The notes under the pieces were generated by a model. That model had not been told where the DNA came from. It did not search any database and worked only from the letters and a program-made list of their open reading frames with translations. A DNA stretch of 64,000 nt from Polynucleobacter sp. (GTDB lineage: Bacteria; Pseudomonadota; Gammaproteobacteria; Burkholderiales; Burkholderiaceae_D): NCBI GenBank assembly GCA_021737945.1, contig JAIPCX010000008.1, positions 1 to 64,000 of the forward strand. The letters run 5' to 3'. The position numbers and the translations under genes were made by a program. Below, piece after piece: positions 4,118-63,489 of the stretch; positions within the stretch are counted from its first letter, which is position 1; each line of letters starts with the position of its first letter.

Positions 4118-4147
4118 TTGGTCTGAAGTCGTAGTCTACTCATTACT

Positions 4148-6529: not shown

Positions 6530-6576
6530 AATCCCATACCCTCATTGGCTAAAGACACGGGAGGAGACATTAACTA

Positions 6577-7892: not shown

Positions 7893-7893
7893 A

Positions 7894-8961: not shown

Positions 8962-8962
8962 C

Positions 8963-10389: not shown

Positions 10390-10413
10390 GATGTTTAGCT
10401 TTAGTAAGAAATA

Positions 10414-11811: not shown

Positions 11812-11914
11812 GAATAACTCCTCAGAGCAAAACCAAACATTCAAAATTAGTTTTATATATTTTGCATACCAAAAAAGCCCTTAAATGGAATTAATTGAGC
11901 AATATGGGTAAGAA

Positions 11915-11944
11915 TATCTAAATATAGCAAAGTATATTTTGATA
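11915..11944. promoter_or_regulatory. putative ModE operator
   Basis: A 30-base palindrome: TATCTAAATATA, a 6-base spacer GCAAAG, then TATATTTTGATA. Eleven of twelve arm positions are complementary. The architecture resembles the E. coli ModE box (ATCG-type ends and TATA cores facing each other across a short spacer). It lies 104 bases upstream of both the porin start and the modE start, so it could repress both when molybdate is bound. Confidence 0.7.
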
Positions 11945-12048
11945 CAAAATTTACTTGTGTTTATTTTGCATGTCAACCCAGTTATGATCCCAGGTCAGTG
12001 AAATAAAGCCTTTTATTATCAAGTTAGCACGCCAGCATGGACTAAACG

Positions 12049-12846: not shown

Positions 12847-12887
12847 GATTAGCCCACTTTTTTTATTATAGAAGTATCAGACTAATG

Positions 12888-15050: not shown

Positions 15051-15262
15051 AGCAATTCAGTAATAGGCAAAGTAACGCGACCCCTGAACATACCGGCCTA
15101 AGGCCCTAATTACCAAGCAATTACTGTGTAAACGGACGCAAGTCTTATGACTTAGTGTCGATAAATAGGGAGTCAGAAGGTGATGGCATCAAACCTTAAG
15201 CTTGGCGGCAAACTTTAAGGTATTTTTTTGCTAACTCATCCGATCTTCTCCCACCTCCTGAT

Positions 15263-15289
15263 TAAAGTTCGAAATTTCTACGCCGATAA
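15263..15289 (+). promoter_or_regulatory. sigma-28 (FliA) promoter
   Basis: TAAAGTTC, exactly 11 bases, then GCCGATAA. The enterobacterial FliA consensus is TAAAGTTT-N11-GCCGATAA, so 15 of 16 positions match. The start codon of the 72-aa gene is 30 bases downstream of the -10 element. Confidence 0.85.
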
Positions 15290-15318
15290 CTACTTCACAT
15301 CATTAGGGGGCACTCGCC

Positions 15319-15537
15319 ATGTTGATCGAGCGCGTAGAACTAAGCAAAATTAAATTGCAGGACGATCTGGTAACGCTGGAGATGCTTCAGGTTGGTGAGA
15401 GCATTTTCTGCTCAGACTTTAAGAAAGCCCAAAGTCTGCGCAGTCTCTCTTACTATCTGATTCGCTCACGCAAACTGGAATGGAAATTTACTTTCCGTAA
15501 GATGGATCACGGCTGGAGAATCATCCGTATCCGTTAA
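15319..15537 (+). CDS. small protein (72 aa) under a flagellar-type promoter
   Basis: I do not recognise the family. The 72-aa product is basic and soluble, with a first half MLIERVELSKIKLQDDLVTL and a strongly basic C-terminus (LEWKFTFRKMDHGWRIIRIR). There is no signal peptide. The gene has a near-perfect sigma-28 promoter (15263-15289), a GGGGG ribosome binding site and its own terminator, so it is real and monocistronic. It probably belongs to the motility or late-flagellar regulon; a DNA- or RNA-binding or regulatory role is possible from the charge alone. Confidence 0.75.
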   Translation: MLIERVELSKIKLQDDLVTLEMLQVGESIFCSDFKKAQSLRSLSYYLIRSRKLEWKFTFRKMDHGWRIIRIR

Positions 15538-15563
15538 TACCGTTTTGCTTTAGCTATCATTTT

Positions 15564-44165: not shown

Positions 44166-45407
44166 TCAGGCCTGCATTTGCCGCCGATAAGCCTCTACCT
44201 CCTCGTCAACCGTAATGTCGCCAGCTGCGCGACGGATCTCCCAACCGATGGCTCTTCCTAGAGGAGGAGGTACCGCGTTGCCCACTTGAGCATAACGCGC
44301 CCTCAACGGCCCGTGGAAGCGGAAGGAGTCGGGGAAACCCTGGGCCCGTGCACATTCCCTTACTGACACGACCCGCTGTTGCTCTGGGTGGAAGAACCTG
44401 CCCCAATAGGGTTCGGGCTTGTTGGTGATCGTCGTGAAATAACCCTCCCAGTCTAACCTACCAAACCTTGAGAAATACCTCTTCTCCCCAAGTTTAGCCA
44501 AGTTCTTGGGCTGAAGTTCAGTAGGAAGATCAACCCAGCACGAACCGGTTTTGAAAGGCAGATGTTCCAATCTCTCTTGATTTGCTTGTCCAAGCCGGAT
44601 TGTGTCGTGGTCAGTCACTTGCTTCGAGCCCGATCTGATACGAACCTGCCAGGAACGAGATGCTTCTAAATCATATGGTCCTTGAAAGGAGCCTCCATTT
44701 TCGATCCTGGGTAGATCTCCGATTGCGTCTCTGACGGTGACAGCGGGAAGCAGTGTTTCAAAGAAATCGCTTTCCAAAGAGGATACTTTAATGATGTTGG
44801 ACTTGAAACTACCTACGTCTAGGGGCCGGTTTTTAGGAAACGCGTGCAAAGGCGTAGGATAGGTGAGACGCAGTTCAACATCTCGTGAGCCCAGAACAAA
44901 TACACGCCATCGTGTCTGGGCAACCCCGTAAGTTCCAGCCTGAAGCACAAAGAGATCGGCTTGATAGCCTATTTCCCTCAGCGAAGCTAACAACTCATGT
45001 ACCGCTTTTCCTTGCTCTAAAGACAAAATTCCACTCACGTTTTCCATCACGACAAACCGAGGCTGAAGCACTTCCACGATTCGAAAAAAGGTCTCAACAA
45101 GCGAGTTGCGAGGATCATCGACATCACGAAAACGATTTATGCCGCAAAAGCCCTGGCAAGGAGGGCCACCAACCACAACATCCACATCACCTCTGCTCGG
45201 GAGTAATGAGTCGCGGTCCAGCATCCGCTTTAGGAGCTGATTGGCATCATCCTGAAAAATTAAGGTTTGGAGATGGTTGTAAGAGTAGGTTTGCGCAGCC
45301 GGAGTCCAAAACTCGTTGGCCCATCGTACATCGAGACCGACTTGCTCAAGTCCAACCGAGAGTCCCCCGCAGCCTGCGAAGAGGTCCAGAACAGAGAGCC
45401 GCTTCAT
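44166..45407 (-). CDS. DNA (cytosine-5-)-methyltransferase
   Basis: A 413-aa C5-cytosine DNA methyltransferase. Conserved motifs are in order: I, VLDLFAGCGGLSVGLEQVG (AdoMet binding); IV, VVGGPPCQGFCGINRFRD with nucleophile C84; VI, VVMENVSGIL; VIII, QTRWRVFVLGSR; and X, YAQVGNAVPPPLGRAIG at the end. The target-recognition region (about 215-320) is unassigned. Its start overlaps the upstream adenine methyltransferase stop by four bases (ATGA), so it is part of the same operon. It probably marks self DNA for the helicase-nuclease module. Confidence 0.95.
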   Translation of the reverse strand: MKRLSVLDLFAGCGGLSVGLEQVGLDVRWANEFWTPAAQTYSYNHLQTLIFQDDANQLLKRMLDRDSLLPSRGDVDVVVGGPPCQGFCGINRFRDVDDPRNSLVETFFRIVEVLQPRFVVMENVSGILSLEQGKAVHELLASLREIGYQADLFVLQAGTYGVAQTRWRVFVLGSRDVELRLTYPTPLHAFPKNRPLDVGSFKSNIIKVSSLESDFFETLLPAVTVRDAIGDLPRIENGGSFQGPYDLEASRSWQVRIRSGSKQVTDHDTIRLGQANQERLEHLPFKTGSCWVDLPTELQPKNLAKLGEKRYFSRFGRLDWEGYFTTITNKPEPYWGRFFHPEQQRVVSVRECARAQGFPDSFRFHGPLRARYAQVGNAVPPPLGRAIGWEIRRAAGDITVDEEVEAYRRQMQA

Positions 45408-48400
45408 GTCTCAGCAATCTCCTCGTCCGTGGTATCTCCGAAAGGCTGTCCAGAAGCAACCCAGTCATCATAAGATTGCCGGGCTTCGCGAGTGTTGCCA
45501 GCTTTGGCTTGGCGGCTCCAGGCCATTCGGCAAGCTTGCTCCTGCAATACATGCAGGACCTCTGCTCTTTCGGACGGATCATCAAAGCCAATACAAGTTA
45601 GGAACGCATCATCGAGTCGACGACGGTCTTCCCGCATAACCTCGTCGTAAATCATAAGAATCGGGCGATCACAAATCGCCATGAAAGCATCCATCAACGC
45701 GTCAATGCCGGGAGCATTTGAGGTTACGATCGGCAAGCGCTTTGCCTCATATACCTTCAGGTCAAGCATCCCTTGTCCAAAGTTTGCTCGGCCGTGCACT
45801 TCACGCGCAACCATTCCGAAAGTCGAGATGAGACTGGCCGTAATCAATGGACCCGCAGTAGGATCTTTCGAAGCGTTAAGCGGGTATACAGCGTACAGGC
45901 GATTGTCGATGTGTACATCTCCGTCAAGCCATGCAGCAACTGATCGTCTCTTATAGGCCATAGGCATCGCGACACTTGCGTGCTCATGGATGCCTAACTG
46001 ATACCAAGGGTTTCTACCCCTTGTAGTGGGACGTAGGTGGAATCCTTCATTCTCACCCCAATGCACGTATGCTGATGTACTGAGATCATTAACTCTTTGA
46101 GGGTTGATCCGAACCAATCTGTAGGCAGCGTGTTCTGGTTTCAGCCTTGGCTGAACAACCTCTCGGGACTTAACAAAAACCGGTTCCATAATACAATCCA
46201 AACCAATTTGTCGAGTGTTGCCGTCATCGCATCTAACAACAGCGGCATTGCCGCTAAATGACAAGACGCGAACATAGAAGAAATCATTCGCGCCAGTTGT
46301 ATAACCTCTCTTCACAGTAGCGACCTGCCCAAGAGGAACGAGAGAACAATCAGCTTGCCTCAATATACGCTCGTAAACATCTGGAGCACGGAAGTACTTT
46401 CCGCCCCACTTATCACCCACAAAGTCTTGTGCTCCCCGGCGATCTGGATCTCCTAGGCCATCGCGCCAGAGATCGGCTCTGGTCTTTAGAATTTTCCGAC
46501 TAAGTTCAGGCACAGCAACCGCGTCATCAAACTGAGCTTTTAACTGCACGAAGGCTGTTTCTGCCGCGTCGCTTGGGCGCCCCTTTTTGCAAAAACTGAT
46601 AATCGTATTAATTTCCGCGCTCGTAAACTGCTTCTCGTATGCACTGTCGAGAATAGTAAGAATTTGTGTCTCCAACAAGAGGTGCCGCTGCAGGTCTCCT
46701 CCAAAGTCAACGTCCAACCAGCTGTTTGAACAAACGAAGACATCGATTCCACCAGGACGGGTTAGTTGCAGCGCCCTCGCATAGAACGAGCAATAAAGAT
46801 CTGACCGCCTCGTCACAACTCCTGAATACATTCGCACGTACTCTGCCTTTGCGGTCTCCTCAATTTCCTCGTTTCGAACGTATGGCGGATTAGCCAAAAT
46901 GACATCAAAGCCGCCTGCCCTACCATCCCGTTCAACAAATACCTCTGCAAACTCGACACGCCAATCGAAGGCACTTGGCGGGCATGGAGCATTTTGCTCT
47001 GCTGTAAACCGAAGTGCATCGAGATTCTCATCGATTTGCCTTTTTAGGTCGGCCTTGTTCGAGGTGTCATATGGATCAGAATACTTAGTTTTGAGTTGCG
47101 CAAGTCTGTCAGCTTCTTCGTGGATAGCTTTTAGGAATAGGTCTCCAGCGCTGCTTGGATCCGGAGCCAAGAGCGTATCTCCCGCCGCAATTTTGTATTC
47201 GAGATTCGGCAAGGGCTCGGACTCAACCATGTCTACCGCGACAGAGAGCCAGAATCGAAGGCGTGCCATGTTGGCGGCGAACTCTTGAAGATCGACCCCG
47301 TAGATGGCGTTTTGAAGTAAAAGGAGTTTGCGCTTATAGTCGGACCGGGCCGCATCGGTGCCTTCGGCGACCTTACTGTCGAGGACTTTGAGCACTTCGT
47401 TCAACTCGTGCAGCATACCGACAAGATAGGCCCCAGAGCCGCAAGCCGGATCACAAACCTTCACATTTTCGACCGCGTGCTTTAGCTTAGCGAGTGGGAT
47501 GTCCGTTCCTGAGAGGGTGTGACGATCAACGAGTGCTTCAACATCGACGCGGCCGGCGAAAGGTTCGAGATAGACTTTGAGCGCTTCGCGGCACATGAAC
47601 CGTACGATATTTCGGGGGGTGTAATAAGACCCAGTTGCATGGCGTGGATCTTCCCCTCGGCGCCGAGATGTCTCCTGCGACTCACGAAGGGTCATCAACT
47701 CCTCAAAGACGAGACCAAGCATTTCGGGATCGACCGCGACTTCGACGTCATCGGGAGTCGATTCGCTGATCGTAAAATTGAACCGACGGAACACTCCATC
47801 GGGGCCAATCAGTTCCCTATAGAATGAGTTTGGGAGTTTGGTCCAGCCGAGGTTGGCGTATTTCCCGCTCTGCTGTTCATACTTGCCCGCCTCAAAGAGA
47901 CTCCCGTGCAGATACGGCACTGTGCCGATTCGTTGGAGGTTGGCGTCGCTATTCCGTATCTTGTCATCCGGCTCGCAAAGCCCCTGAAAGAAGAGTTGCC
48001 GCATCCGTTCGTGAAAGTCGAAATCATTTCCCCGAGGGTCGGCCTCGTCGTAGAGCGCGAACAAGTACTCCTTTGCTCGGCCTTCGCCCCGGGGGCCAGG
48101 AGGAATTAGCCAACCCTTCTTCTGCATGAGAGCCAGGAAGAGTAGCCGGTTGACGACGGTCTGGAGCATGAGCCGAGCCGCCTCCTCACCTTGATCGACA
48201 AGCTTCTGGTCCTTTCTTGTCTCACTGACCAAGATGATTGCGTCCAGGTACTTTTCGAACACTGCCTTGATCCCTTGGAAGAACTCCTTCTGGACCTTTT
48301 CGACGTTCCAGGCGTCCTGCCAAGTCTTGGCGTCCCAGTCCCAACCACCGGTTGAACGTTCCGACGGCATCTTAAGGGCGGGTAGATTGAGTTCACGAAG

Positions 48401-48781
48401 CGTACGAGTCGCGTCTTCCTCTCCATTAGCCCATCCGAATGCTTGGAGCTTGGGCTGACGACCCTCCTGCTCAACAAAGCGGCAAAAGCGCATGTCTAGA
48501 TAACCGTTGGAGGCGACAATGAAGACAATGTCAGAGATGGTCTTGCCCTGGAACCGGGCACGGTTACGCATGACGGCCCGTATGCCCCGCAAGATCTCTC
48601 GAAGCCGCCCCCTCTTGAAGTCACCATCTGTCTCGACGAGCATGACGGGATGCGGATCGTCGGCCCCGAATGGAACAATCTGACTGACATTTGCCTTAAC
48701 ATCTCGCTCGTCAAGCCTAATGTCGTATGTGAAAGGGTCTTGGGGATCTACAGACGGCCACCCGAGCTTATGACGAAGCAA
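45404..48781 (-). CDS. Eco57I-like N6-adenine DNA methyltransferase (PglX/type IIG-like)
   Basis: A large class I adenine methyltransferase, 1125 aa from a TTG start. Motif I is VCDPACGSGAYLVGML (residues 444-450) and catalytic motif IV is ANPPYVRNEEI (631-634). The N-terminal 440 residues are helical and family-typical, with HATGSYYTPRNIVRFMCREA just before the catalytic domain. The C-terminal third has TaqI/Eco57I-type target-recognition character. I see no PD-(D/E)xK site. The 4-base overlap with the 5mC gene shows one operon. An ATG at 48847, one base after the helicase stop, would be the expected start, but that frame hits TAA at 48823-48821; see findings. Confidence 0.88.
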   Translation of the reverse strand: MLRHKLGWPSVDPQDPFTYDIRLDERDVKANVSQIVPFGADDPHPVMLVETDGDFKRGRLREILRGIRAVMRNRARFQGKTISDIVFIVASNGYLDMRFCRFVEQEGRQPKLQAFGWANGEEDATRTLRELNLPALKMPSERSTGGWDWDAKTWQDAWNVEKVQKEFFQGIKAVFEKYLDAIILVSETRKDQKLVDQGEEAARLMLQTVVNRLLFLALMQKKGWLIPPGPRGEGRAKEYLFALYDEADPRGNDFDFHERMRQLFFQGLCEPDDKIRNSDANLQRIGTVPYLHGSLFEAGKYEQQSGKYANLGWTKLPNSFYRELIGPDGVFRRFNFTISESTPDDVEVAVDPEMLGLVFEELMTLRESQETSRRRGEDPRHATGSYYTPRNIVRFMCREALKVYLEPFAGRVDVEALVDRHTLSGTDIPLAKLKHAVENVKVCDPACGSGAYLVGMLHELNEVLKVLDSKVAEGTDAARSDYKRKLLLLQNAIYGVDLQEFAANMARLRFWLSVAVDMVESEPLPNLEYKIAAGDTLLAPDPSSAGDLFLKAIHEEADRLAQLKTKYSDPYDTSNKADLKRQIDENLDALRFTAEQNAPCPPSAFDWRVEFAEVFVERDGRAGGFDVILANPPYVRNEEIEETAKAEYVRMYSGVVTRRSDLYCSFYARALQLTRPGGIDVFVCSNSWLDVDFGGDLQRHLLLETQILTILDSAYEKQFTSAEINTIISFCKKGRPSDAAETAFVQLKAQFDDAVAVPELSRKILKTRADLWRDGLGDPDRRGAQDFVGDKWGGKYFRAPDVYERILRQADCSLVPLGQVATVKRGYTTGANDFFYVRVLSFSGNAAVVRCDDGNTRQIGLDCIMEPVFVKSREVVQPRLKPEHAAYRLVRINPQRVNDLSTSAYVHWGENEGFHLRPTTRGRNPWYQLGIHEHASVAMPMAYKRRSVAAWLDGDVHIDNRLYAVYPLNASKDPTAGPLITASLISTFGMVAREVHGRANFGQGMLDLKVYEAKRLPIVTSNAPGIDALMDAFMAICDRPILMIYDEVMREDRRRLDDAFLTCIGFDDPSERAEVLHVLQEQACRMAWSRQAKAGNTREARQSYDDWVASGQPFGDTTDEEIAET

Positions 48782-48848
48782 TCTAAATAGTCCCGCGCGG
48801 TCGCCAACGAGTTTTAGATCTTAGGATGTAATTTCTATGGAGCGCATA

Positions 48849-51800
48849 TCAGTTCTTTACTCTGAGTTCCATCATGCAGCTGAGCATAGGGACAATGGTC
48901 GCGGGTAGCCCGTTACCACCCACCTCAGAAAACTGCTGCCGGATTTGGTTCTTGATCACCTTGAGGGACGACTTTACATATTCCTCTGACGTAGGATCTC
49001 CTGAAGGCTCGCCGGGAGTGGTGTTCCGCAATAAGTTCAGCACTCTCGGGGAATCAAGATCAACCTTGCCATCGGCCCAAAGGATCCCCAAAACCGGGCG
49101 GCCGATAAGGTCCTTAAATCGCTTTCGATCGTCGTCCGTAGTTTCTGCTTTGGCGGTCATAACGTAACATGCAAAAAAGCCGTTCTTTGGTGCGTTGGCC
49201 CAGACACCAAAGGCGCCTTCCGGGATGTCTTCAATCTCCTCCAGAGGAGCCTTGTTCGATTGGGCGGTTAGTTTGACGTAGTCCTCTAGTGCTTGGTCAA
49301 ACGAAGTGACGGCACCTTCGTAGAGAGCGTCCCATTTCTCGATGTCGCTGTTGAATTCTCTAAGATTTCCTGCCGGATCGGTTGGCTTGAAGAAACTAAG
49401 GTCGAGACCGACTGTTTTGCTAATAGCTAGCGTTCGATTCTCGACGGTACCGACGAGGTTAATAATCTTCTCGATCTGCTTTGGCGGAAGTACGTTGAAG
49501 ATCTCGAATTCGTGAGCATGGGGAGTCTTTATAGGGTCAATCCGACGATCGACGCGACCTATTCTTTGGATGAGCCTAACCGGGTTCCAGTGAATGTCGT
49601 AGTTCAAGACGGCATGAGCCTCTTGTAGGTTGACACCCTCCGCCAGAACGTCGGTCGAGATGAGCACGTCGATGCGGTCCGGAACGGAGCGGGCCCAATG
49701 CTCCGGCTTATCATTGTAGCTAGGGCAGAACGCGTGGAGGATTGATGCCCGTGTTCCGACAACGCGAGAGTCGATACGGGCCACATTCCTTCTGGCGAGA
49801 CGCTTCGATAGCTCAATCTGCAGATACTCCGCAGTTCTTTGGCTCTGAGTGAAGACGAGAATCTTATGCCCGTTTTGAGTCTGCTCGTCGATGAGCTTGC
49901 CGATTTGTTCTAGCTTCGGATCTTCTTGCCTTCTGGCTTCGAGAGTCTTGTCGTGAATAAGCTTGAGGTAACCAAGGTCGGCGACAATATCGGTGAGCCA
50001 CTTCTCAGTAAAGAAGTCAGAATCCTTAAATTCCGCCAACTTCTGCCGTAATCCCCGTGAGCGAACCACATGATCAAGCCATGCGTCCACTTCGTCCTCC
50101 GAAGTTGGATCAGCCGTATCAGCTTCCGAATCCGAATCCTCCTCATCTATAAATTCTGCTTCTTGCTTAAAGAGTGGTGTCCTAACCCAGTGGATATGGT
50201 CTTGGATCAGGTTATCGGCTTCCTCGCCAAAGACATGCCGCAGTCGCGCAATCAATCCAGTCCCAAGGCTCTGAATAATCCCTTGGAAGGCAGCTGGGCT
50301 GCTCTCTAACTGCTTAAGCGCATTTGCGAAGACCAACTTGGCCAGATGGACTTCCATATGATAAGTCTTCGTCACACCCGCCGAGCCTGGTCGTCGGTAC
50401 TGCTCGGTCAAGAACGCAGCTAGCTTTAATCCCTTAGTTCCACGCTGTAGTTTGTCAAGGACACTGGATAAGTGAGCCTCCCTGTTTTTCAGCCCTGCCT
50501 TCTCGACGCGCTCCAGCTCATTCCGCATTAACTCGATCAAATGAACCCCGGGACGGAAAGTCTTGTCAGCCGTCTGAATAAGTTCTGCGAATCCACCAGC
50601 ATCATTTGAGAGTTTAACCTCGATGCAGTGCGGCGGTTTTCGATGCGGAAACCTGAGATCTTTACCAACCGACGTAGCGAGACGCCGGCAAGTTTGTCGG
50701 CTTCTCTGGATCACCACACTTTCTAAGATGTCGTTGAGTGACACTGAAGGAGATTTGAACAAGTCAAGCGACATTTGCCCTTCGTCAGGATTGTGGTCAT
50801 CGCGGTTGCCGTCAAGCTCCTTCGCATACCGTCTAATCTGACCGATACTGTAACCAACGAGTGATCCGCTCTCATGCGTTATCAAAGCAAGTTGAGCCGA
50901 AAGATCTTGATAGGCCGTGTTTATTGGTGTCGCAGTTAAGAGCACTATTTTCTTCGCCCTTCCCTCGAATCTATCAACGATTTGGAGTAGGTTTTTGTAA
51001 CGATTCGCGCTCGTCGTCCTGAAGTTGTGGGATTCGTCGACCACGACCACGTTGGATCGCTGAAAAAGTTCTCGAACGAGTTCTTGCTTGTCTTTAAGAG
51101 ATTGCACAACGTTCTCTGCGCCATCAATATAAGGCTCAAATCCAAGCTCCGTCATTGCGATAGCGTGGATCGTCCCAAATGGGGCCAGGTATCGACGAAG
51201 GTATTTCTTAAGGTAACCCTCCCAAGTTGATTTTAGGATGTTTTTTGGAGCGACAAGGAGTATGTTGTCGAGGTTGCCTCGCTCGTCTCCTCGCGCCAAA
51301 GACTCCATCACAGCAAGGGCGATAAAGCTCTTACCGAGTCCGACGCCATCGCACACCATCACACCTTCGTGACGCTCCAGGATTTGCAACGCTCGTCTGA
51401 ATCCTTCGTACTGATGTGGGTCAAGTATTGGAACGATAATAGAGTTATCATAATGAGGATGAGTGCCTTGAGTTTCATCTCCCCAGAGTTTTAGGGCTTT
51501 GCAGTAGATGAGAAATGGCTCGTACATCCGCGTATGCCGCAAAGCCTCTTTGAGTAAATCCTCGGTGACATCGTCTAACTCTGCTTCAAGCCATCTCGCT
51601 TCAAACCACTCGGACAAATGCGCCGCCTGTTCTCGGGAAAGCTCGACATTTAGTTCGATATTCTGCGTTAGCCCAAGCCGAGTAAAGTTGCCGCTTCCGA
51701 TCAGCCCCACTTTTTCTGGAGAGACGGTTCGGTCTATCAAATAGGCTTTTGCGTGAAACTTATCTCTTTTGTAGCAGCGGACCTGAAGTGCCTTTCGCTC

Positions 51801-52109
51801 AATAAGATCTTCTATTACCTTGAGGCGCCACAAAAATGGGTCTTCTTCGCGCCTCGCTTGTAAGTCAATTTCGGACCTTGCACGAAAGGCTGCAATCAAA
51901 AACAGCCTTGATTTCGCACTCGCCTCATCTCCAAACAGTAAGCGAACAGTTTTTAGGTTTCGAAGAGGTGATTCAAGGAGGTTAAAGGCATCTAGCGAGA
52001 AGTAGGCAGAAGCAATACTGATCGAGGTACCAGTTTCTGATAACTCTAGTACAGCTTTTAAAAGCTTGTTCTCTCCAAGATTGTCAACAATGCTTGATGT
52101 TCGGTTCAT
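48849..52109 (-). CDS. PLD-nuclease/SNF2-family helicase fusion
   Basis: A 1086-aa protein fusing an N-terminal phospholipase D-type nuclease domain to an SF2/SNF2 helicase (numbering below from the TTG at 52118). The PLD motif is KFHAKAYLIDR (H122, K124, D129) followed by GSGNFTRLG. Helicase motifs: I, CDGVGLGKSFIAL (about 256-268); II, VVVDESHNFR (361-364); III, LLTATPINTAY (about 393-403); V, DVLAEGVNLQEA; VI, QRIGRVDRRID. Only one HKD motif is seen, so it likely acts as a dimer. It heads a minus-strand operon with two DNA methyltransferases, which indicates ATP-dependent restriction. ATG 52109 is preferred over TTG 52118. Confidence 0.9.
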   Translation of the reverse strand: MNRTSSIVDNLGENKLLKAVLELSETGTSISIASAYFSLDAFNLLESPLRNLKTVRLLFGDEASAKSRLFLIAAFRARSEIDLQARREEDPFLWRLKVIEDLIERKALQVRCYKRDKFHAKAYLIDRTVSPEKVGLIGSGNFTRLGLTQNIELNVELSREQAAHLSEWFEARWLEAELDDVTEDLLKEALRHTRMYEPFLIYCKALKLWGDETQGTHPHYDNSIIVPILDPHQYEGFRRALQILERHEGVMVCDGVGLGKSFIALAVMESLARGDERGNLDNILLVAPKNILKSTWEGYLKKYLRRYLAPFGTIHAIAMTELGFEPYIDGAENVVQSLKDKQELVRELFQRSNVVVVDESHNFRTTSANRYKNLLQIVDRFEGRAKKIVLLTATPINTAYQDLSAQLALITHESGSLVGYSIGQIRRYAKELDGNRDDHNPDEGQMSLDLFKSPSVSLNDILESVVIQRSRQTCRRLATSVGKDLRFPHRKPPHCIEVKLSNDAGGFAELIQTADKTFRPGVHLIELMRNELERVEKAGLKNREAHLSSVLDKLQRGTKGLKLAAFLTEQYRRPGSAGVTKTYHMEVHLAKLVFANALKQLESSPAAFQGIIQSLGTGLIARLRHVFGEEADNLIQDHIHWVRTPLFKQEAEFIDEEDSDSEADTADPTSEDEVDAWLDHVVRSRGLRQKLAEFKDSDFFTEKWLTDIVADLGYLKLIHDKTLEARRQEDPKLEQIGKLIDEQTQNGHKILVFTQSQRTAEYLQIELSKRLARRNVARIDSRVVGTRASILHAFCPSYNDKPEHWARSVPDRIDVLISTDVLAEGVNLQEAHAVLNYDIHWNPVRLIQRIGRVDRRIDPIKTPHAHEFEIFNVLPPKQIEKIINLVGTVENRTLAISKTVGLDLSFFKPTDPAGNLREFNSDIEKWDALYEGAVTSFDQALEDYVKLTAQSNKAPLEEIEDIPEGAFGVWANAPKNGFFACYVMTAKAETTDDDRKRFKDLIGRPVLGILWADGKVDLDSPRVLNLLRNTTPGEPSGDPTSEEYVKSSLKVIKNQIRQQFSEVGGNGLPATIVPMLSCMMELRVKN

Positions 52110-52879
52110 TTTGCTCAATCACCATGATTTGGGCGTTAACCTGAATCTTATGGACAGATCAATTTTTGTTTTTAGCCCTGTTGCTTGGTTTGTGTTCACT
52201 TAGTTTCCTGCAAAAATTCATTTGTGAAAGTCGGCCCAGACTTTAGGCTGATCCGAATGTCTATGTCTCACTGAGAGAACCACCAACTACTAACAGTCAT
52301 GTAGGCTAAAATCTATTTGACCCTCGCCATCCTGTAAATGGATTACTCGGTGGCCTGAGAAAGTAGGCGAATATCCGATGGTCATGATGGCGTTTTCCTT
52401 CAACCCCAGTTACCGCTTTTATACGTCAATCCAAATCTCGATATCCTCCAGCTGAAATCAACATTCTCCAGCAACCATTAAGACCAGAAGCTTGTCATAT
52501 TGGGCGAGTATTAGATTGTCTTTACGTCCGTGCTAGGAACCTTGCAGCTTTGCGGACGGTCTTGACAAGCATTGGCTGTTGGCTACAGACCCTCACTAAA
52601 ACAATGGATTTAAACAGTATAGTAGAAGACTGGGCAAGCAAGTCCATTTTCAGCGGAAAGATTATTTTGTATTCCGGCAGGATCACTATTTGAGCTACTG
52701 GTAAGCTAAGCTGAGCTAATGTTTGAAAATCATCTAGAGTTGGGTCGACGCATATACCAACCTGCCTGCCGGGCAAGGTGAATTACATATCGGTCTTAGT
52801 TTAGCCTGCGGTATGCATTGCTTGCAATAAATTCAACCATAAAACTTAACCATCTATAGAATTAATTTTAAAAAATTAC
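52110..52879. other. 770-base gap within the defence island
   Basis: No confident gene. An 84-codon frame on the minus strand (52522-52776) and a partly overlapping plus-strand frame have no recognised family or good ribosome binding site. The segment looks like decayed coding or insertion-sequence DNA separating the GC-richer methylation module from the AT-rich DUF2130 gene. Confidence 0.45.
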
Positions 52880-54696: not shown

Positions 54697-55218
54697 ATGT
54701 TGGAATCCAAAATAACCAGGGATTTACAAAAAATTACAGACCATGACTTCAACGACATACCTGATACAGCTCGTCAAATACTACGTGACTTGCTAGGTCG
54801 ACTTATACAGCGTGGATTCATGAATATCGAGGATTTATATGCGAATCCCATCATTTCCACAGCTAGCACTTCACCTATTGTTACCAGCGGTGGATTAGGA
54901 GGAAGTTATTTCAATTTAATCCCCTCATCACCCAATCAGCCCGCAACGTGCACACCATTATTGATAGCAATATCTAAGCGGCACCTACCAGGCTTCAACA
55001 TGGGCAGAGTTCTACGCCTGGTCCGTGAGCACTTAGTCGAGTGCGGTACCGGGACTCAGCCATTACTTAACCGAACACTAATTATATTTACTGACCACCT
55101 AGACAGGCGTGCTTTATTCGAAAGTCGACTCGATATTCAGCAACACTCCTTACATGGTGGACTTAAATATGCGCTAGTTGTTTGGGGTGGGCAAAGCTGG
55201 AGGCGTGAATATTTTTAA
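54697..55218 (+). CDS. unknown protein (173 aa), first gene of ATPase operon
   Basis: Unrecognised 173-aa soluble protein. The N-terminal part is helical (TARQILRDLLGRLIQRGFM), a Ser/Thr/Pro-rich stretch follows (about 55-80), and the C-terminal part looks alpha/beta (LVREHLVECGTGTQPL, TLIIFTDHLDRRALFE, LKYALVVWGGQSW). AGGGA precedes the ATG. The giant ATPase gene begins six bases after its stop, so the two are co-translated. A role as sensor, adaptor or effector of the ATPase is inferred from position only. Confidence 0.65.
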   Translation: MLESKITRDLQKITDHDFNDIPDTARQILRDLLGRLIQRGFMNIEDLYANPIISTASTSPIVTSGGLGGSYFNLIPSSPNQPATCTPLLIAISKRHLPGFNMGRVLRLVREHLVECGTGTQPLLNRTLIIFTDHLDRRALFESRLDIQQHSLHGGLKYALVVWGGQSWRREYF

Positions 55219-55224
55219 AAGTAA

Positions 55225-58200
55225 ATGAATATGGCTTCTGATAATTACACATACTCTCACCTCCCCGTATGGGGACTCCCGCGCTCAAGTCTTATTGGTA
55301 ATGACGAATCCATCCCCATTATCGCTCTTATGCAGAGCCAGGCTGGGTTAAACAGAGAATTCAGGCGCAATTTTCGAAATTCGGCTGCAAAAGGCGTAAA
55401 TCTCGAGGATGCTCTAGGAGCAAATATTGCAAAAAATGAATGGGCTTTAATAACGCATTTTTTAAGTGCGGAAGATAGGTTTTTTTGCTTCTGGTATTAC
55501 ATGAAGTGCCTGCAAGAACCTCACAAGTATTCTGGTAAGAAGGTCTACCCGATGGCGCTTAGTCTTCAATTTCTGAAGGCGTACGCTTCCGATTGGTACG
55601 ACATTCCTTACGACGAAACTGTTTTATGTGATAAGTGCTCTGAATGGAAACAGATCCAAAAAAGCTTAGAGAAAAATTTTATCCATAAAAGTAAAAAAAT
55701 ACACCTTGGTGTTTTCATGCTGTGGCCTCGTTTAATAGATGATTTATCTTTTCGTTGGGGTAATAGCACTGAAAGTCAGCGCAGGGTTATATCAAACGCA
55801 ATATTTGCTCTTACATCAATTAGTTACTCTCAATGGTTTATCGAAACTGCCATAAGACTTTGTCCTGAACTGGAATCTGATTTAGGACATCTATTAAAGA
55901 TAGGAATTAGAGCTGTATCAACTCCAACTTCAAAAGTAGAAATTAACAAGCAAGAACTAAAGACTTTCAATGACGGAATGGAGACAACTGACGAGACGAT
56001 AGACCTTTGGAATTCAATTAGCCAACGGCTCAATCAGTTAGTAAAAGATTGGCCCTTAGGCCCATCCAAGCAATCGCTGCAAAGTCTGGCTAATCTAGGT
56101 ACTGAGTCTGCAATACTTGCTGAATCACTCACTGAGAAAAGGGTTGATCCAGCCGAACTTTTTGAGAAAACTCTAGAAGTACTCCAAACACGTCTAGTTG
56201 AAATTTCGTCAGGAAGTGAAAACTCATGGATCACTGAGGATGACGTAGCCAGTATATTAGCTCGCTGGTATGTCGCTCGAAAAAATACTTCAGATTCCAC
56301 AGAACTTGAAAAACTTGAAAAAGATGCACAGCTAGCATTAGTTCGTATAAAAAGTGCTTTGGTTGATCTTAATAATGCGCAAAAAACTTTCTGTGATTCG
56401 ACGCTTGCAGCTTTAAAATTGGAAGAAGAACTTCAGAATGCGAAATCGGCACGTCTACGAGTAACTCTATCAAAACAACAATTGGAATTAAATGAAAAGG
56501 TATTTGCAGAAAAGTCTGACGTTATAGACCTAATGTTATTTCTTATGAGCTCGGCCTCTCCCTGGGGAGAAACTTTTGATCCCGAGGTAAACTACAATGT
56601 AGACACTGCTCCACTTGAAAGTCCTTTAGAAGTTGATACAAGTTTTGCGTGGCCGAGTTCGGTTGAAAACTATGAATTGAAGGATGCTATCAACGCAACG
56701 GAATTACTTGAATTGTCTGCCAATGATGATCTAAGTAATCAAACAATAATCACTCAAGAAAATACTGAAAATTTAAACGAGAGCATACCTAACACCACAG
56801 AAAATAATCTACTTATTGACAAAAGGTTAGGTCTAGACACTCATACTAAGGACAACCCACTAGCCGCCACAATTAATCTCCCAAGTACTTATGTCTTGAG
56901 TGAAGAGACAGGAAGTTCAGGCAGCGCTGAACAACAGCCATTTCAAACATTACAAAACCATAATTGGTTTAACGAAAATGCTGGCCAAAAATGTAAACCC
57001 ATTTGGACTCTATTAAATCAAAGCTATCCTGGCCTAGCCTACCAATTTGCTGAAGCACTTAGTAGCAGTGAGGAAAGTATTCTCATACCTTACCCCGAAC
57101 TTCTTAAATGTATTGCTCTTTCAAAAGGGCTGAATAGAAGTGACGGACAACTTGCTGTTGATATCTCTGAAGCGTTTGATAGCTTTGATCAAGAATGGTT
57201 TAACCCTAAAGGCGCACCCTCAAATTGGCATACTGCTGTTAATTTGCTTTTAATAGCAGCAACAATAAAACCAATGATTTTCGCGCCTGCGTCAAATGCT
57301 TCTAAGGTAGCTAGCTACAGACATTTAGATGGGCGCTATTCTACACTTCTGAAGCTTGTGCAAGAAGTAAGTGAGGTCAGTGAGTCACTAACTGCATTCG
57401 TCATTGGTCCAACAATACTTCAATCAGTTTTAAGCGGAAACAACCAAAAGAGTCAACTTGCAAAGCTGTCAAAGGGTGCCGAAGATTGGTTAATTGAAAG
57501 AGCGCCGCATAAGAAGTTCAGCTACTCTCCAGCTAATAAGGTCTGGCTACATTGGCTCCGTCCCGGGGAGCTGTTGCACAATCTCATGAACCCCATCGCT
57601 TGTGGAAATATCGAATCTAAGGGTAGTGTTAGAACCCAGTTAGATAGAATTTATGACTATCAATTATTTGTAACCCAAGTAAGGGAGTCTGACCGTAGAC
57701 AATTAAGGCGTCGCGGACAAGAGATTCAGGCCACAGCTCTAGATCACTTGTGGAGTGCAACCCAAGAAGCAATTGTCCTTGCAAAAGAGTGGCTTGTGGT
57801 CTTGAGCACCCCGTTAGGCACGAGTGGGCGACTGGTTGAAAATCTTGAGCGATTAAAGGTGACCTTTAGTAAGCATTTCGAACTGGCTTGCGAAGAATTG
57901 AACCAACCATGGGAAGACGAATGGAATCAGGTTCAAGCTGCAAGTAATATCGTTTATTCCCAGCTGAGCTATTTGCAAGATATGTTTGCCAATAAAGTCT
58001 CTTTTCCAATAGCTGAGCTCCAAGAAGCTGAGCTCCAAAAAACTGAGCTACTTGCAAAGGAACTACTATTAGTTGAAACAATCTCAATAGGTAATAGGTG
58101 GGAAATTAGATCTGATTCGAGAGAGATTCTGAGTGCTCTAAAAGAATGGTGCATATCCCCCCCAGAAATAAATTCCACGATCAAGTATAGATTAAAAATT

Positions 58201-61200
58201 GGTGATTTTGCAGGCGCTGAACTACTTATTAAATCTAGAGAAATAACAGTTGAAGACACTTCACAACTTAATGTAGATAAGGCAAGGGACTTATGGCTGA
58301 AAGATATAAAGCAGATCATTCAATGCACTAGAAAGGCCTCAGAAATTGGTCTGGCCTATGGTTATTTAAGTGATGCTGAGCGCGCTGATTACGAGAGTGA
58401 AATCAGCGCAGTAGAGGCGGCTATTAGTGAGAATAACCGCTTTGACGAGCTAGCTAATAGGCTGAAGTCAGTTGAGGCTAAAATAGAGGGTCAAAAATCG
58501 AAGCGAATTGAAGAAGCTTGGAGGCAGTTAAACAACGAAGTTACTGGCCTTTCAAGTGGTGTGGTTGCCCAACTAAAAAAACCACTTGAAAAGTCTGATA
58601 TTCATACATTTAATGAGCTATTACAACGCGTTAGAAACGGTTTCGACCCTTGGCCAGAGCAAGAAACAAAAATAGATATCTTTAAGGATTATTTCCCTGA
58701 ACTTTTATCGGATATCTTAGAGCAACTTAACTCCCTTGATGCTGAAGCAGTACACAAATTAATTAAAACTGGTGGAAGCTTAGGTAGTGTTTCATTTTTT
58801 CTTGACGGAGATGAGCAAGCCCGAACTTCGGCTGAGCAGTGTCATGACTCCTGGGCGAATTCATGCGTAAGGCGTGCAATGAACCGTGAGAACCTCCGCA
58901 AAATTCTTACATTTGTTGGACTAACTCCGCAAAAACTCGATCAAGATCGAAATGGGGTCGGCTGGATTTTACAAACAGCACCTCTGGAGGATAGAGAAAT
59001 TTGTCCCGTGCCGCATTTCGGGTCTCGTGCGAATGGAAGGTATAAAGTCCATGTAATAAATGAAAGACTTACTCCTGAAGATTTATTGAGCCGAATTGGC
59101 GAAGGAACTCAACAAACAGCTACGATAATTTTGTACTGTTCTCGACCGCCTAAGAAGTTCTGGCATGAACTTGCTCTTCTCTCAAAAGAGAGGCAGCGTT
59201 CATTCTTGTTATTGGATGAACCAATGCTTCTATATTTGCTTACCCAGACGGGATCGCGCCTTAAAAGATGGTTTAGCGTTGCCCTTCCATTCACATTCAG
59301 TGAACCCTATGACGCGAGCGCAGGCTATGTTCCTTCTGAAATGTTCTACGGTAGAAGCTCTGAACTTGAACTTATCAAAGAACAGGGTGGCTGCTATTTT
59401 ATTTATGGAGGACGACAACTAGGTAAGACCGCACTTCTTAGAAGAGCTGAAAGGACTTTTAACGACCCTGGAGCTGATCACCACGCGATTTGGGTTGACT
59501 TACTGGCGCAAGGTATTGGGGAAAGACGTCCAGCATCTGATATTTGGACTTCTCTGGGAGACAAGCTACGCGAACTAAAAATACCTGGGCTGGACATACC
59601 AGCAGTAAGTACAGCTAAGCTCGCCACTGTTGATGCGTTTTTGGCAAAACTAAAGAATTTTCTCGATATCAAGCCCAATAGTAGGATTCTTGTTCTCTTG
59701 GACGAAGCGGACAGATTTTTCGAGCAGGATGGCCTGCAAGGTAATGGTTATGCTGAAACTAGACGCCTAAAAGAGTTAATGGATGTTACGCAAAGACGAT
59801 TTAAGGTGGTTTTTGCTGGATTACATAATGTCCTCAGAACTGTTAATACCTCGAACCAGCCTCTGGGCCACCTTAATGAAGCTATACGTATAGGCCCACT
59901 ACTATTGAATGAAAGGGAAATTCGCGCCGCGGAACAGTTAATCACGCAACCTATCGAAGCTTCAGGCTATGAATTTGAGGATCGTAGTCTTGTTATGCGA
60001 ATACTAGCCCAAACCAACTACTACCCAAGCTTGATACAACTTTACTGCTCTCAGCTACTAAGACATGTTCGTGAGTCAAAGTTACGACGACCTAGTACCA
60101 ACGGTCCACGATTCATAATTGAAGAATCTGATATCGAATCTGTATTTTCTGGACGCCCATTAAGAGATGCTATTCGTTCAAAGTTTCGACTTACTCTGCA
60201 GCTCGATGACCGCTATGAAGTTATTGCTAATGCCATTGGTTTAGAGGCTCTAGCTCCCAACTTTGATCAATCAAACGGAATTAACTGGCGCGAAATTCGT
60301 AACGACTGCAGCACTTGGTGGCCTGAGGGTTTTAAAACAACTTCGGAACGTGATTTTTTAGTTTTACTAGAGGAAATGGAGCATCTTGGAGTATTGAGCG
60401 AAGTTAAACCTGCTGAACGATTTAGTCTGCGAAACCCTAATGTTCTACTTCTATTAGGTAGTAAAAAGGAAATCGAAAATACTCTCGAAGCCGAAAGAGA
60501 ACCAAGAGTAGAATTTGAATCGACCATCTTTAGACCTGCGCTAAATGGCCGAATAGATCATCCTGCAAGAAATCCACTAACTTACCGTCAACTTGACGAA
60601 ATTATAAAATCTAAAAATTCGGTTCAGTTTATTGCATCCACAGAAGCTGGAGGTGGGAATAATCTTGCTTTGGGTTTAAAAGGGCATCCAATAAGCGCGA
60701 GCGACCGCCTTTTTGTTCTGATTGATAAAGCAACTGACAAAAGAAGCTTTGTCCAAGAACTTGATAAACAATTCGAAGTACGAAAGGATGGAGTCATGGT
60801 CATCTTTGTACCCGCTAGCACCCCTTGGACGCACGACTGGGTAGAGTCATGCCGAGCAAAGGTAAGCGCGTTGAGATCCTCCACTAAAACAGTATCAGTC
60901 GTTTTCCATGCAGACCCACTTCGGTTATGGTCGTTAAGCGTTACAGCGAATTCAGATTTATTTAAACAACCTTGGATGTCTGTCTTACCTTGGGCTCGAG
61001 GTTTTGTTAAAAAATGGCTCGAAGAGCTTCAGTTACCTGTTGATTCGGTAGATCGACTTTTTCAATATACAGGCTATTGGGGAGGAATTCTTGAATTGGT
61101 GGCTGAAAGTTACCCTGGTGCTGTCGAATTTACAAATAATCTTGATCAATTTTCAACACAGGTTTCAGATCCCCACTGGCGCGAAAGACAACTCAATCTC

Positions 61201-61425
61201 ATAACGGGAGAAATTGAAGAAGCTCAAGAAGTCTTAAAAATGATTCATTACTTAGGCGACGGAGTAACAGAAGATGATCTTGTCGAATTTGGAGAGTTAT
61301 CTCGCGACCTCGTGAAACGAACATTAAGATGGGGTGGGCCTTTGGGGTTACTAATTCCAGAGGTAGGATCAGCGTGGTCAATGAACCCATTTCTAAAACT
61401 CTTATTTAAGGAAACATCGGAATGA
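55225..61425 (+). CDS. giant STAND-like P-loop ATPase (2066 aa)
   Basis: A 2066-aa multidomain protein. Residues 1-470 form an unknown region with a coiled coil at about 360-420; 600-1300 is helical and unassigned. A P-loop ATPase domain of the AAA/STAND type begins near 1370: FYGRSSELELIKEQGGCYFI, Walker A YGGRQLGKTALLRRAERTF (K1401), Walker B RILVLLDEADRFFE (D1493, E1494), and the downstream YYPSLIQLYCSQLLRHV helix and winged-helix region. A second, degenerate P-loop-like module lies at about 1790-2060 (IASTEAGGGNNLALGL). The last gene overlaps its stop by four bases. Size, operon and neighbourhood point to a defence sensor/effector, but no known system is matched. Confidence 0.8.
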   Translation: MNMASDNYTYSHLPVWGLPRSSLIGNDESIPIIALMQSQAGLNREFRRNFRNSAAKGVNLEDALGANIAKNEWALITHFLSAEDRFFCFWYYMKCLQEPHKYSGKKVYPMALSLQFLKAYASDWYDIPYDETVLCDKCSEWKQIQKSLEKNFIHKSKKIHLGVFMLWPRLIDDLSFRWGNSTESQRRVISNAIFALTSISYSQWFIETAIRLCPELESDLGHLLKIGIRAVSTPTSKVEINKQELKTFNDGMETTDETIDLWNSISQRLNQLVKDWPLGPSKQSLQSLANLGTESAILAESLTEKRVDPAELFEKTLEVLQTRLVEISSGSENSWITEDDVASILARWYVARKNTSDSTELEKLEKDAQLALVRIKSALVDLNNAQKTFCDSTLAALKLEEELQNAKSARLRVTLSKQQLELNEKVFAEKSDVIDLMLFLMSSASPWGETFDPEVNYNVDTAPLESPLEVDTSFAWPSSVENYELKDAINATELLELSANDDLSNQTIITQENTENLNESIPNTTENNLLIDKRLGLDTHTKDNPLAATINLPSTYVLSEETGSSGSAEQQPFQTLQNHNWFNENAGQKCKPIWTLLNQSYPGLAYQFAEALSSSEESILIPYPELLKCIALSKGLNRSDGQLAVDISEAFDSFDQEWFNPKGAPSNWHTAVNLLLIAATIKPMIFAPASNASKVASYRHLDGRYSTLLKLVQEVSEVSESLTAFVIGPTILQSVLSGNNQKSQLAKLSKGAEDWLIERAPHKKFSYSPANKVWLHWLRPGELLHNLMNPIACGNIESKGSVRTQLDRIYDYQLFVTQVRESDRRQLRRRGQEIQATALDHLWSATQEAIVLAKEWLVVLSTPLGTSGRLVENLERLKVTFSKHFELACEELNQPWEDEWNQVQAASNIVYSQLSYLQDMFANKVSFPIAELQEAELQKTELLAKELLLVETISIGNRWEIRSDSREILSALKEWCISPPEINSTIKYRLKIGDFAGAELLIKSREITVEDTSQLNVDKARDLWLKDIKQIIQCTRKASEIGLAYGYLSDAERADYESEISAVEAAISENNRFDELANRLKSVEAKIEGQKSKRIEEAWRQLNNEVTGLSSGVVAQLKKPLEKSDIHTFNELLQRVRNGFDPWPEQETKIDIFKDYFPELLSDILEQLNSLDAEAVHKLIKTGGSLGSVSFFLDGDEQARTSAEQCHDSWANSCVRRAMNRENLRKILTFVGLTPQKLDQDRNGVGWILQTAPLEDREICPVPHFGSRANGRYKVHVINERLTPEDLLSRIGEGTQQTATIILYCSRPPKKFWHELALLSKERQRSFLLLDEPMLLYLLTQTGSRLKRWFSVALPFTFSEPYDASAGYVPSEMFYGRSSELELIKEQGGCYFIYGGRQLGKTALLRRAERTFNDPGADHHAIWVDLLAQGIGERRPASDIWTSLGDKLRELKIPGLDIPAVSTAKLATVDAFLAKLKNFLDIKPNSRILVLLDEADRFFEQDGLQGNGYAETRRLKELMDVTQRRFKVVFAGLHNVLRTVNTSNQPLGHLNEAIRIGPLLLNEREIRAAEQLITQPIEASGYEFEDRSLVMRILAQTNYYPSLIQLYCSQLLRHVRESKLRRPSTNGPRFIIEESDIESVFSGRPLRDAIRSKFRLTLQLDDRYEVIANAIGLEALAPNFDQSNGINWREIRNDCSTWWPEGFKTTSERDFLVLLEEMEHLGVLSEVKPAERFSLRNPNVLLLLGSKKEIENTLEAEREPRVEFESTIFRPALNGRIDHPARNPLTYRQLDEIIKSKNSVQFIASTEAGGGNNLALGLKGHPISASDRLFVLIDKATDKRSFVQELDKQFEVRKDGVMVIFVPASTPWTHDWVESCRAKVSALRSSTKTVSVVFHADPLRLWSLSVTANSDLFKQPWMSVLPWARGFVKKWLEELQLPVDSVDRLFQYTGYWGGILELVAESYPGAVEFTNNLDQFSTQVSDPHWRERQLNLITGEIEEAQEVLKMIHYLGDGVTEDDLVEFGELSRDLVKRTLRWGGPLGLLIPEVGSAWSMNPFLKLLFKETSE

Positions 61426-62519
61426 AATGGCTTGACCTCCCGGGTCCAGCACGTTTTATCAACCAAATAACAGACCATCTTCGAGAGGGTCAAAGTACAG
61501 TGGTAGCCACGCCATTACTGGTACTTCAAAATTTTGAGCAAGTAATTTCAGATAAACTAAATCAAGACCGTTGGAGAGTCCATCGTGGCAACGCAGAATC
61601 TGTACTTGATCCTTTGACTTGGCTTACTGATCAGTTATACATAGAGCCCAAATCTTGGATTAATTGGAGTACAGAAGGTCTTTTTGAATGCCTATCTCCA
61701 GGACAGGTTATCGTGATCAAGGGAATTACACCAAAAACATGGGGCGCATGGAGATCATTCATAAAGGACTTTGACATAGTTAGCCGAAGATGCTCATCAG
61801 ACGAACGTCCCGTCCTACTAATATTTGTTCGCGGTGTATCCATAAGGCATCTTCAAATCGATGGCGCCGCACTTAGCCTAGAAGTATGGTCAGGTGTTTT
61901 ATCAGAATTAGACACGTTAACTTACATAGACCAATTCATTAGACGCTCAAAAAAAGCAACCCCTCATCACAAACTAATTGTGCGACAAATAGCAGCCTTG
62001 TCGCTCTGGGATCTGGAGTTTGCTGAGTTTTTAGCAGATCAACCAACCTCTGATTTGTTTGACGTAAATGTCATAGTTCGTAGGGGACAGGAAGCATTGC
62101 GAGTGCGCGACTGCGCTATAACTGGTGAGTGGGAGGATGGAGGCGCAGATAAAGTTGACGAAAACGAACTTATACATTCGTTTGTTTTGATTGATAGCCA
62201 AGACCCTACTAACGAATTAAATCGAAGAGTATGGGCAGCCCAAGCAGCTGAGTTATTACCTGCAATAGAAATACGGCGAAGAGCTAGCCTTGACTCTCTT
62301 CGAAGATACATAACCTGCCCATTTTGGCTTGATGGTCAACGCAAAGTGACTTCGCTGGAAGAACTTGAAATTGGTACATTAGCATTTGCCGCACACCACC
62401 ATAAAGTGCCAAAAGAATTAAGGGACAAGGTCCAGTTGCTTGCGGACTGCCGTAATAGCCTTGCACATCTGAAAGCCTTAAATGCCACAACTGCTCTAGA
62501 TAGGCGGCTTTACGAATAA
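61422..62519 (+). CDS. unknown protein (365 aa) ending in HEPN-type RNSLAH motif
   Basis: A 365-aa protein translationally coupled to the giant ATPase (ATGA overlap). The N-terminal half looks like a P-loop-derived fold without a Walker A (LPGPARFINQITDHLREGQS, then QVIVIKGITPKTWGAWRSFI and RPVLLIFVRGVS). The C-terminal 90 residues are helical and contain LADCRNSLAHLKAL, where R344 and H349 fit the Rx4-6H catalytic motif of HEPN ribonucleases. It may be the toxic effector or a structural partner of the ATPase. No family is recognised. Confidence 0.7.
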   Translation: MKWLDLPGPARFINQITDHLREGQSTVVATPLLVLQNFEQVISDKLNQDRWRVHRGNAESVLDPLTWLTDQLYIEPKSWINWSTEGLFECLSPGQVIVIKGITPKTWGAWRSFIKDFDIVSRRCSSDERPVLLIFVRGVSIRHLQIDGAALSLEVWSGVLSELDTLTYIDQFIRRSKKATPHHKLIVRQIAALSLWDLEFAEFLADQPTSDLFDVNVIVRRGQEALRVRDCAITGEWEDGGADKVDENELIHSFVLIDSQDPTNELNRRVWAAQAAELLPAIEIRRRASLDSLRRYITCPFWLDGQRKVTSLEELEIGTLAFAAHHHKVPKELRDKVQLLADCRNSLAHLKALNATTALDRRLYE

Positions 62520-62934: not shown

Positions 62935-63489
62935 ATGAATCGCCTCGAACGCTTCTACAAAATCGATCAACTCCTTCAAGACCGCAAAATCGTCAGTCGC
63001 GACGATTTTCTGGCCTTGCTTGAAGTCTCACTCGCCACATTCAAGCGCGATCTTGAATACATGCGCGATCGATTTGCTGCGCCCGTTATTTACGACAACG
63101 ATCTTCGTGGCTATCGATATGAAAACTCCACCACCAGCAAAAACAAATTCTCACTTCCTGGGCTTTGGTTTACAGAGCAAGAGATTTACGCTCTCATCAC
63201 CATGCAACAGCTCCTCGAAAATCTTGATCAGGGCAGCATCATTGGCTCGCACATTGGCCCTTTTCTATCCCGCCTCGACGCCATCATCAGCGAAGGCGAG
63301 CCCTCCTCTAAAGAAATCCGCAAACGAATCAAACTAGTTGATATGGGTAAGCGTGTTCAGGGCCATCATTTCTTTTCAGAGGTGGGTGCCGCTGTTTTTA
63401 AGCGCCATCGTATTGAAATTCAATACTACGCTCGCGCTAAAAATGAAATCACCCTCCGTGAAATCTCCCCCCAACGTCTCGTTCACTAA
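62935..63489 (+). pseudogene. WYL-domain transcriptional regulator, C-terminally truncated
   Basis: The 184-aa translation is the first half of a WYL-family regulator. An N-terminal helix-turn-helix (FYKIDQLLQDRKIVSRDDFL and SLATFKRDLEYMRDRF) is followed by the linker and the start of the WYL domain ([27 protein letters not shown]). It stops exactly where relatives continue with the strand carrying the WYL motif (normally ...RLVHYRENWYL). Full-length proteins are about 320 aa. The stop codon arises at a junction with an inverted foreign gene, so this is a truncation. Such regulators often control defence islands. Confidence 0.8.

Follow-up and report, generated by a model that had tools for sequence, protein, structure and literature searches.

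Fusions of HEPN domains with STAND ATPases and with DUF499 proteins have been described (Anantharaman et al. 2013, PMC3710099), as have DUF499 systems and HKD-helicases (PMC12839542) and, computationally, the pPIWI-RE three-gene systems (Burroughs et al. 2013, PMC3702460), each according to the available part of the paper. Here we analyze a locus in a 64,000-nucleotide stretch of Polynucleobacter sp. (the window, i.e., the first 64 kb of the 109-kb contig JAIPCX010000008.1 in the 2.97-Mb genome GCA_021737945.1), in which the gene for a giant STAND-type ATPase is directly followed by the gene for a likely HEPN protein. We interpret this ATPase-HEPN pair as a two-protein STAND-HEPN abortive-infection module with a putative STAND-triggered HEPN RNase, at a probability of about 0.6. 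Pfam, NCBIfam and PADLOC hold no specific model for the pair, consistent with a first-pass annotation of the letters and reading frames alone, which could match the combination to no named system. The pair was also not found described in the literature searched, and "undescribed" is limited to these profile libraries and that literature because subscription journals and preprints were mostly outside it. No account of the pair is given in the available parts of PMC7159879 and PMC5303251.

The three plus-strand open reading frames (ORFs) of the first-pass annotation were reproduced at its coordinates, including the 6-base gap and the 4-base overlap, and the motifs that it had pointed out, GGRQLGKT and LLDEAD in the 2066-amino-acid (aa) protein and CRNSLAHL in gene 3, are present. 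The features are as follows.

55225..61425, plus strand: giant STAND-type ATPase gene, 2066 aa, putative sensor/transducer (ORF call, Pfam, alignments)
Within 55225..61425, plus strand: N-terminal region of the ATPase, about 1230 residues without a Pfam domain
58990..60534, plus strand: STAND nucleoside triphosphatase (NTPase) core, residues 1256-1770, the most conserved part (core profile matches 58993-60534)
59407..59430, plus strand: Walker A motif GGRQLGKT, residues 1395-1402, with K1401
59689..59706, plus strand: Walker B motif, residues 1489-1494, with D1493 and E1494
Residues 1790-2066 of the same protein: C-terminal region of the ATPase
61422..62519, plus strand: gene 3, a 365-aa HEPN protein and putative effector, overlapping the ATPase gene by 4 bases
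61422..62096, plus strand: N-terminal half of gene 3, residues 1-225, modeled as AAA+-like without a P-loop, putative docking adaptor
62097..62516, plus strand: C-terminal half of gene 3, residues 226-365, Swt1-like HEPN domain
62451..62468, plus strand: HEPN motif RNSLAH, R344 to H349 (Rx4H)
54697..55218, plus strand: gene 1, a 173-aa ORF, 6 bases upstream of the ATPase gene

Avs and other STAND systems resembling bacterial nucleotide-binding leucine-rich repeat proteins (NLRs) have a STAND ATPase of ~2000 aa as their likely sensor, and the giant ATPase is alike in this. However, the C-terminal half of the protein holds its STAND core, the Pfam scan recognized no nuclease domain, and the HEPN effector would be encoded by a separate gene. 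PADLOC holds Avs models, and the giant matched none of the PADLOC families at E up to 1. Druantia is approached in two relatives, with DruE overlapping the giant in genome G386 and a DruE-like remnant preceding it in Accumulibacter, whereas DruE was not among the best 25 matches of any of the eight proteins scanned in the window. In other relatives, pPIWI-RE is fused to the giant or adjoins it, accompanied by PprRE and PprDinG in loci L006 and L046, whereas the window's pair comes without pPIWI-RE. A term search of PMC3702460 returned no HEPN, no ATPase and no STAND NTPase ("stand" occurs there only in "standalone"); it was the single paper in the literature searched that used the name pPIWI-RE, and no experimental paper on pPIWI-RE was found there. 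The DUF499 "BR" systems and Hma, as presented in the available part of PMC12839542, share with the window a HEPN domain and an ORC/Cdc6-STAND ATPase near an N6-methyltransferase and an SNF2 helicase. In contrast, the window's giant has no DUF499 match in Pfam up to E 1, its HEPN partner is unfused, and its length of ~2000 aa with a C-terminally placed core sets it apart here as well. The inactive STAND proteins of BREX (bacteriophage exclusion) in the same source are comparable in kind to the half of gene 3 that lacks a P-loop. Swt1-like HEPN proteins (PF18731; PMC3710099, available part) resemble gene 3 in the Rx4H motif, in which the residue after the arginine is N, D or H in 18/20 gene 3 family members and R in 2/20, and in their association with AAA+ proteins, as for Ava_2192/DUF499. 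Gene 3 differs in being a separate protein with its own AAA+-like half without a P-loop and in the Pfam matches of its family, which are weak and lacking for the window member.

The ORF of the giant is very probably a real gene, as 2066 open codons and four equally long relatives at 32–35% identity are far beyond chance. These full-length relatives (2040–2064 aa) are from Accumulibacter, Roseateles, Azoarcus and a Lysobacterales metagenome-assembled genome, and the Paraburkholderia relative is split over two frames. The equivalents of K1401, D1493 and E1494 are invariant in 21/21 aligned STAND cores and are also kept in the five full-length proteins aligned, including that of the window. In Pfam, AAA_22 is matched just above the cut-off (4e-6) and nSTAND1 below it (0.001); NCBIfam gives no match. 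A Foldseek search with a low-confidence model of the core retrieved the ATPase 2qen, Cdc6/ORC and plant NLRs, with Avs3 (8dgc) lower down at E 4e-3. The AAA_22 match and the intact Walker motifs thus support a STAND-type ATPase, with weak fold support from the low-confidence model.

The product of gene 3 is most likely a HEPN protein. In the family alignment of 20 members (the window and 19 others, two of them near-identical), R344 and H349 are kept in 20/20, and A348 and E316 in 19/20 each, across proteobacteria, Salinibacter, Streptomyces and one viral-collection contig. The Pfam HEPN_Swt1 family matches 7/13 relatives scanned (E up to 5, best 6e-4), and both matches with bit scores given are under the Pfam cut-off. 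As an independent test, we compared the C-terminal profile of gene 3 with a HEPN_Swt1 profile built from five matches found in 80 genomes; hhalign returned a probability of 92.9 and a score of 43.3 over 58 columns and paired the RN..AH motifs of the two families, whereas 30 column shuffles scored ≤16.7. The AlphaFold model of gene 3 (predicted local distance difference test, pLDDT, 86.9; predicted template modeling score, pTM, 0.81) has a mostly helical C-terminal half with short strands. Foldseek matches of the whole model were RFC, RuvB, ORC and NRC2 (best E 2.9e-5, TM-scores 0.2–0.4), which we read as reflecting the modeled N-terminal half. Gene 3 as a single query in the genome contigs found no relatives, and its alignment found nothing when searched against the viral contigs.

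The two genes recur together. A relative of gene 3 lies directly behind the ATPase gene in 19/27 loci, and in 17 of these 19 pairs the start judged likely for it is ≤12 bases from the ATPase stop. Judged from these comparisons, the core of the system is two genes, ATPase and HEPN, not three. In Methylocystis parvus, the gene 3 relative is a 357-aa open frame (L031 14487-15560); the gene table of the plasmid holds only its second part (14967-15560). Locus L003 (with L011, partial giant, short contig) is counted among the 20 gene 3 members and stands outside the 27-row tree. The plasmid records numbered 27, of which 20 were listed and the loci of 14 were used; H7, H12-H14, H19 and H21 were left out, and the listed scores of H7, H12-H14 and H19 are identical to an included plasmid record.

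Defense genes accompany the giant's relatives, and the giant is fused to or adjoins pPIWI-RE in 7/27 loci. The pair's neighbors in the window itself, among them a type IIG-like methyltransferase, an HKD-SNF2 helicase, a cytosine methylase, a WYL regulator and a helicase with a restriction endonuclease, also speak for the module reading. The Microvirga protein has 3394 aa, with pPIWI-RE as its first ~960 residues (PF13111, PF18157, PF13032) and the ATPase as its C-terminal part, and the fusions generally are one protein of ~3100–3400 aa. Searching with a pPIWI profile from four loci (Microvirga, both Azospirillum and Bradyrhizobium) revealed further fusions in G493, G510 and one viral-collection contig; in A. 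ramasamyi pPIWI is split over two ORFs, and in G653 a 67-aa pPIWI-like fragment lies upstream. PADLOC recognized PprRE and PprDinG in the Microvirga island and G493, and PprDinG in G510; this check covered L006, L045 and L046, with both proteins scanned in L006 and L046, and the pPIWI assignment of L008, L027, L028 and L039 rests on the pPIWI profile and layout. The IMG/VR contig L039 carries a 3177-aa pPIWI-RE/STAND fusion and a HEPN gene at 2891-13608, which may be prophage cargo because a nearby ORF presumably resembles Mu gp16. In G386, the DruE helicase overlaps the giant (E 4e-164); a complete Druantia is unsupported there because the 1073-aa gene before the ATPase matches nothing, and the ORF behind the ATPase is one that we take to be transposase-like. 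In Accumulibacter, a member of the window's clade, the giant is preceded by the truncated start of a DruE-like helicase, whose P-loop is altered (E 9.5e-29). An HKD-SNF2 helicase stands behind the giant in Brasilonema, and a DinG-DEAD helicase stands two genes upstream in the actinobacterial loci L024 and L025. The pPIWI-RE fusion and the DruE overlap are visible only through the relatives. Beside the STAND-HEPN pair of Agrobacterium, ThiF-family and patatin-like genes (L029 16150-20658) are arranged like an operon of the cyclic-oligonucleotide-based antiphage signaling system (CBASS), by annotation only. Overall, the first-pass calls of a STAND-type ATPase and of a HEPN protein were borne out, the former by AAA_22 and the Walker motifs (Foldseek agreeing at low model confidence) and the latter by the Swt1 comparison and the invariant R344 and H349. 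The outcome it had named as adverse, homologues in non-defense contexts only, is not what the relatives present.

The tree of 27 cores groups the window with five proteobacterial relatives that carry the ATPase-HEPN pair (six rows, support 100/99), and no member of this clade has pPIWI. When set against the five actinobacterial rows, the seven pPIWI rows separate as a group (99/98); with all rows considered, they belong to a ten-row side that also holds Bosea, Agrobacterium and G653 and is split from the window's side at 90/86 only. We read the pattern as one early pPIWI association with later losses, with two separate gains also possible; under one gain or two, the window's line is placed outside that association by this tree. 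Linkage to pPIWI as a trait of the window's clade was considered and is contradicted by the tree. The core profile matched 3/250 genomes of the order, host included, the other two being pPIWI fusions, and 2/289 genomes of the class of G386, G386 included; the order sample contained one further genome of the same genus, which gave no match. Gene 3 was found in 2/299 genomes of the phylum, host included. Eight of 398 genomes passed E 1e-3, among which G000, G386 and G181 alone look like the giant's family by strength and extent, and the other five were treated as generic STAND matches. The giant's relatives are often on plasmid records, a plasmid collection being among the sets searched. As a single query, the C-terminal part of the giant found nothing in the viral contigs; its alignment later found one.

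Starting from the ATPase site, the HEPN motif, the adjacency of the two genes and the defense contexts, we infer how sensing, assembly, docking, RNA cleavage and arrest would follow one another. The N-terminal region of the giant would sense an invader-derived structure, a task that the fused pPIWI-RE or an adjacent helicase would take over in relatives. The STAND core would then open and oligomerize in an ATP-dependent manner and recruit the HEPN partner by way of the latter's inactive AAA+-like half. Once clustered, the HEPN domains would pair into active dimers and cleave RNA of the host, the phage or both, and growth would stop before phage release. The module seems able to act as a second, suicidal layer behind various primary systems that target DNA.

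Several results weigh against this interpretation. The predicted structure of giant residues 1230-2066, where the helical and winged-helix arrangement typical of STAND C-termini would be sought, is poor (pLDDT 67, pTM 0.35). Pfam finds no HEPN domain in the gene 3 product of the window itself, and no HEPN structure is among the best 50 Foldseek matches of its whole model, all of AAA+ type, so that the HEPN assignment rests on the profile comparison and the motif. By hhalign, the N-terminal half of gene 3 shows no profile relation to the giant's core or C-terminal region, and the idea that this half is a copy of the giant's domain was dropped. No HEPN gene lies in the stretch compared in 8/27 loci (five actinobacterial, Bosea, Brasilonema and G386; L025 ends 0.9 kb past the ATPase), and the link between ATPase and HEPN is not universal, because five of these eight have another protein, of ~770 aa, just upstream of the giant (L024, L025, L026, L032 and L034, as two ORFs in L034). 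Pfam finds nothing in this protein (L024, L025), nor does PADLOC (L025), and hhalign finds nothing to make it a hidden HEPN or pPIWI. Additionally, the pPIWI link is not simply transferable to the window, because the pPIWI-linked rows lie opposite it in the tree and the other order genomes hold fusions, leaving the window's form at 1/250 in the order sample. The giant has no relative in 50,697 phage records.

The neighborhood would also fit a different role, with the giant as an AAA+ motor that loops or scans DNA for the neighboring methyltransferase/HKD-SNF2 restriction system and HEPN as no more than a backup. Such a role has been proposed for DUF499 and BrxC, with DUF499-HEPN as precedent (PMC12839542 and PMC3710099, available parts). 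Window positions 44166-52118 on the minus strand hold a cytosine methylase, a 1125-aa type IIG/PglX-like methyltransferase and an HKD-SNF2 helicase (PADLOC C3a139/PLD_Helicase). The helicase behind the Brasilonema giant is 27% identical to the window's over 930 columns, and DruE and DinG are neighbors in other loci. However, the window's helicase and methyltransferase are on the strand opposite to the STAND operon and beyond a DUF2130 gene, and the giant lacks the DUF499 match; we consider this role rather unlikely. A role in making guides, in which RNA cut by HEPN would supply a nucleic-acid-guided system and an AAA_33 kinase-like domain could 5'-phosphorylate the products for loading into pPIWI-RE, seems quite improbable. 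The AAA_33 family includes polynucleotide kinases. It is matched by 4/13 gene 3 relatives scanned, and by alignment the C-terminal AAA_33 extension is present in L006, L008, L027 and L028, all alphaproteobacterial pPIWI-RE loci. A strict tie between kinase domain and pPIWI is nevertheless contradicted by Agrobacterium, with a weak AAA_33 match and no pPIWI-RE, and by the pPIWI-fused L039, L045 and L046, whose partners are short (392–422 aa). The window's gene 3 has no kinase match in Pfam, and PF13032 finds nothing in the host genome, although 14 control genomes are also blank while L006 matches.

The pair has no known phenotype, which would suit a housekeeping or regulatory function, for instance RNA turnover, placed in a defense island by chance. 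Its rare and patchy occurrence (3/250 order genomes) and the several loci fused to or overlapping defense-family genes make this very improbable. The first-pass annotation had proposed a three-gene system, which is unsupported beyond this genome because gene 1 has no relative in the searched sets: none in 72,556 plasmids, none in 199 further order genomes, none in the viral collection (a search sensitive to close relatives only) and none in the loci of the ATPase relatives compared. Gene 1 has a weak EcoEI_R_C match below the Pfam cut-off, and it was rejected as a core part. The 6-base gap and shared strand suggest that it is perhaps co-transcribed with the pair and would be compatible with gene 1 serving a genuine three-gene system as its sensor or antitoxin; given the absence of relatives, we regard that role as highly improbable. 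The STAND-HEPN abortive-infection module remains our preferred interpretation.

The STAND operon has a G+C content of 39–43% vs 49–53% in the adjoining restriction block. A truncated WYL regulator lies at window 62935-63489, and a complete copy lies at 68568-69542 of contig C49 (L035 6568-7542); the copies are alike at 181/185 codon positions, stop included, and in 97% of 555 bases. Between them are a 1499-aa helicase with an MTES_1575 restriction endonuclease (L035 1449-5948) and a 123-aa ORF. It looks like an insertion or duplication put this second defense gene beside the STAND operon. Synteny with the same-genus genome G521 gave scattered matches only and no clean empty site. Another long ORF in the window encodes 2464 aa (19967-27361, minus strand).

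Tentatively, the STAND-HEPN pair may be an interchangeable suicide module plugged into unrelated pPIWI-RE, DruE, HKD-SNF2 and DinG-like helicase defenses, a view we hold with less than even confidence from the relatives' gene neighborhoods. If it is true, PIWI target recognition in the fusions would directly switch on an NLR-like ATPase and, by way of it, a HEPN RNase. The fused giant would then offer an answer to how pPIWI-RE ends infection, namely, through a STAND-controlled RNase besides the restriction endonuclease. If pPIWI-RE, Druantia-like and stand-alone loci share the module, a common abortive layer would be possible.

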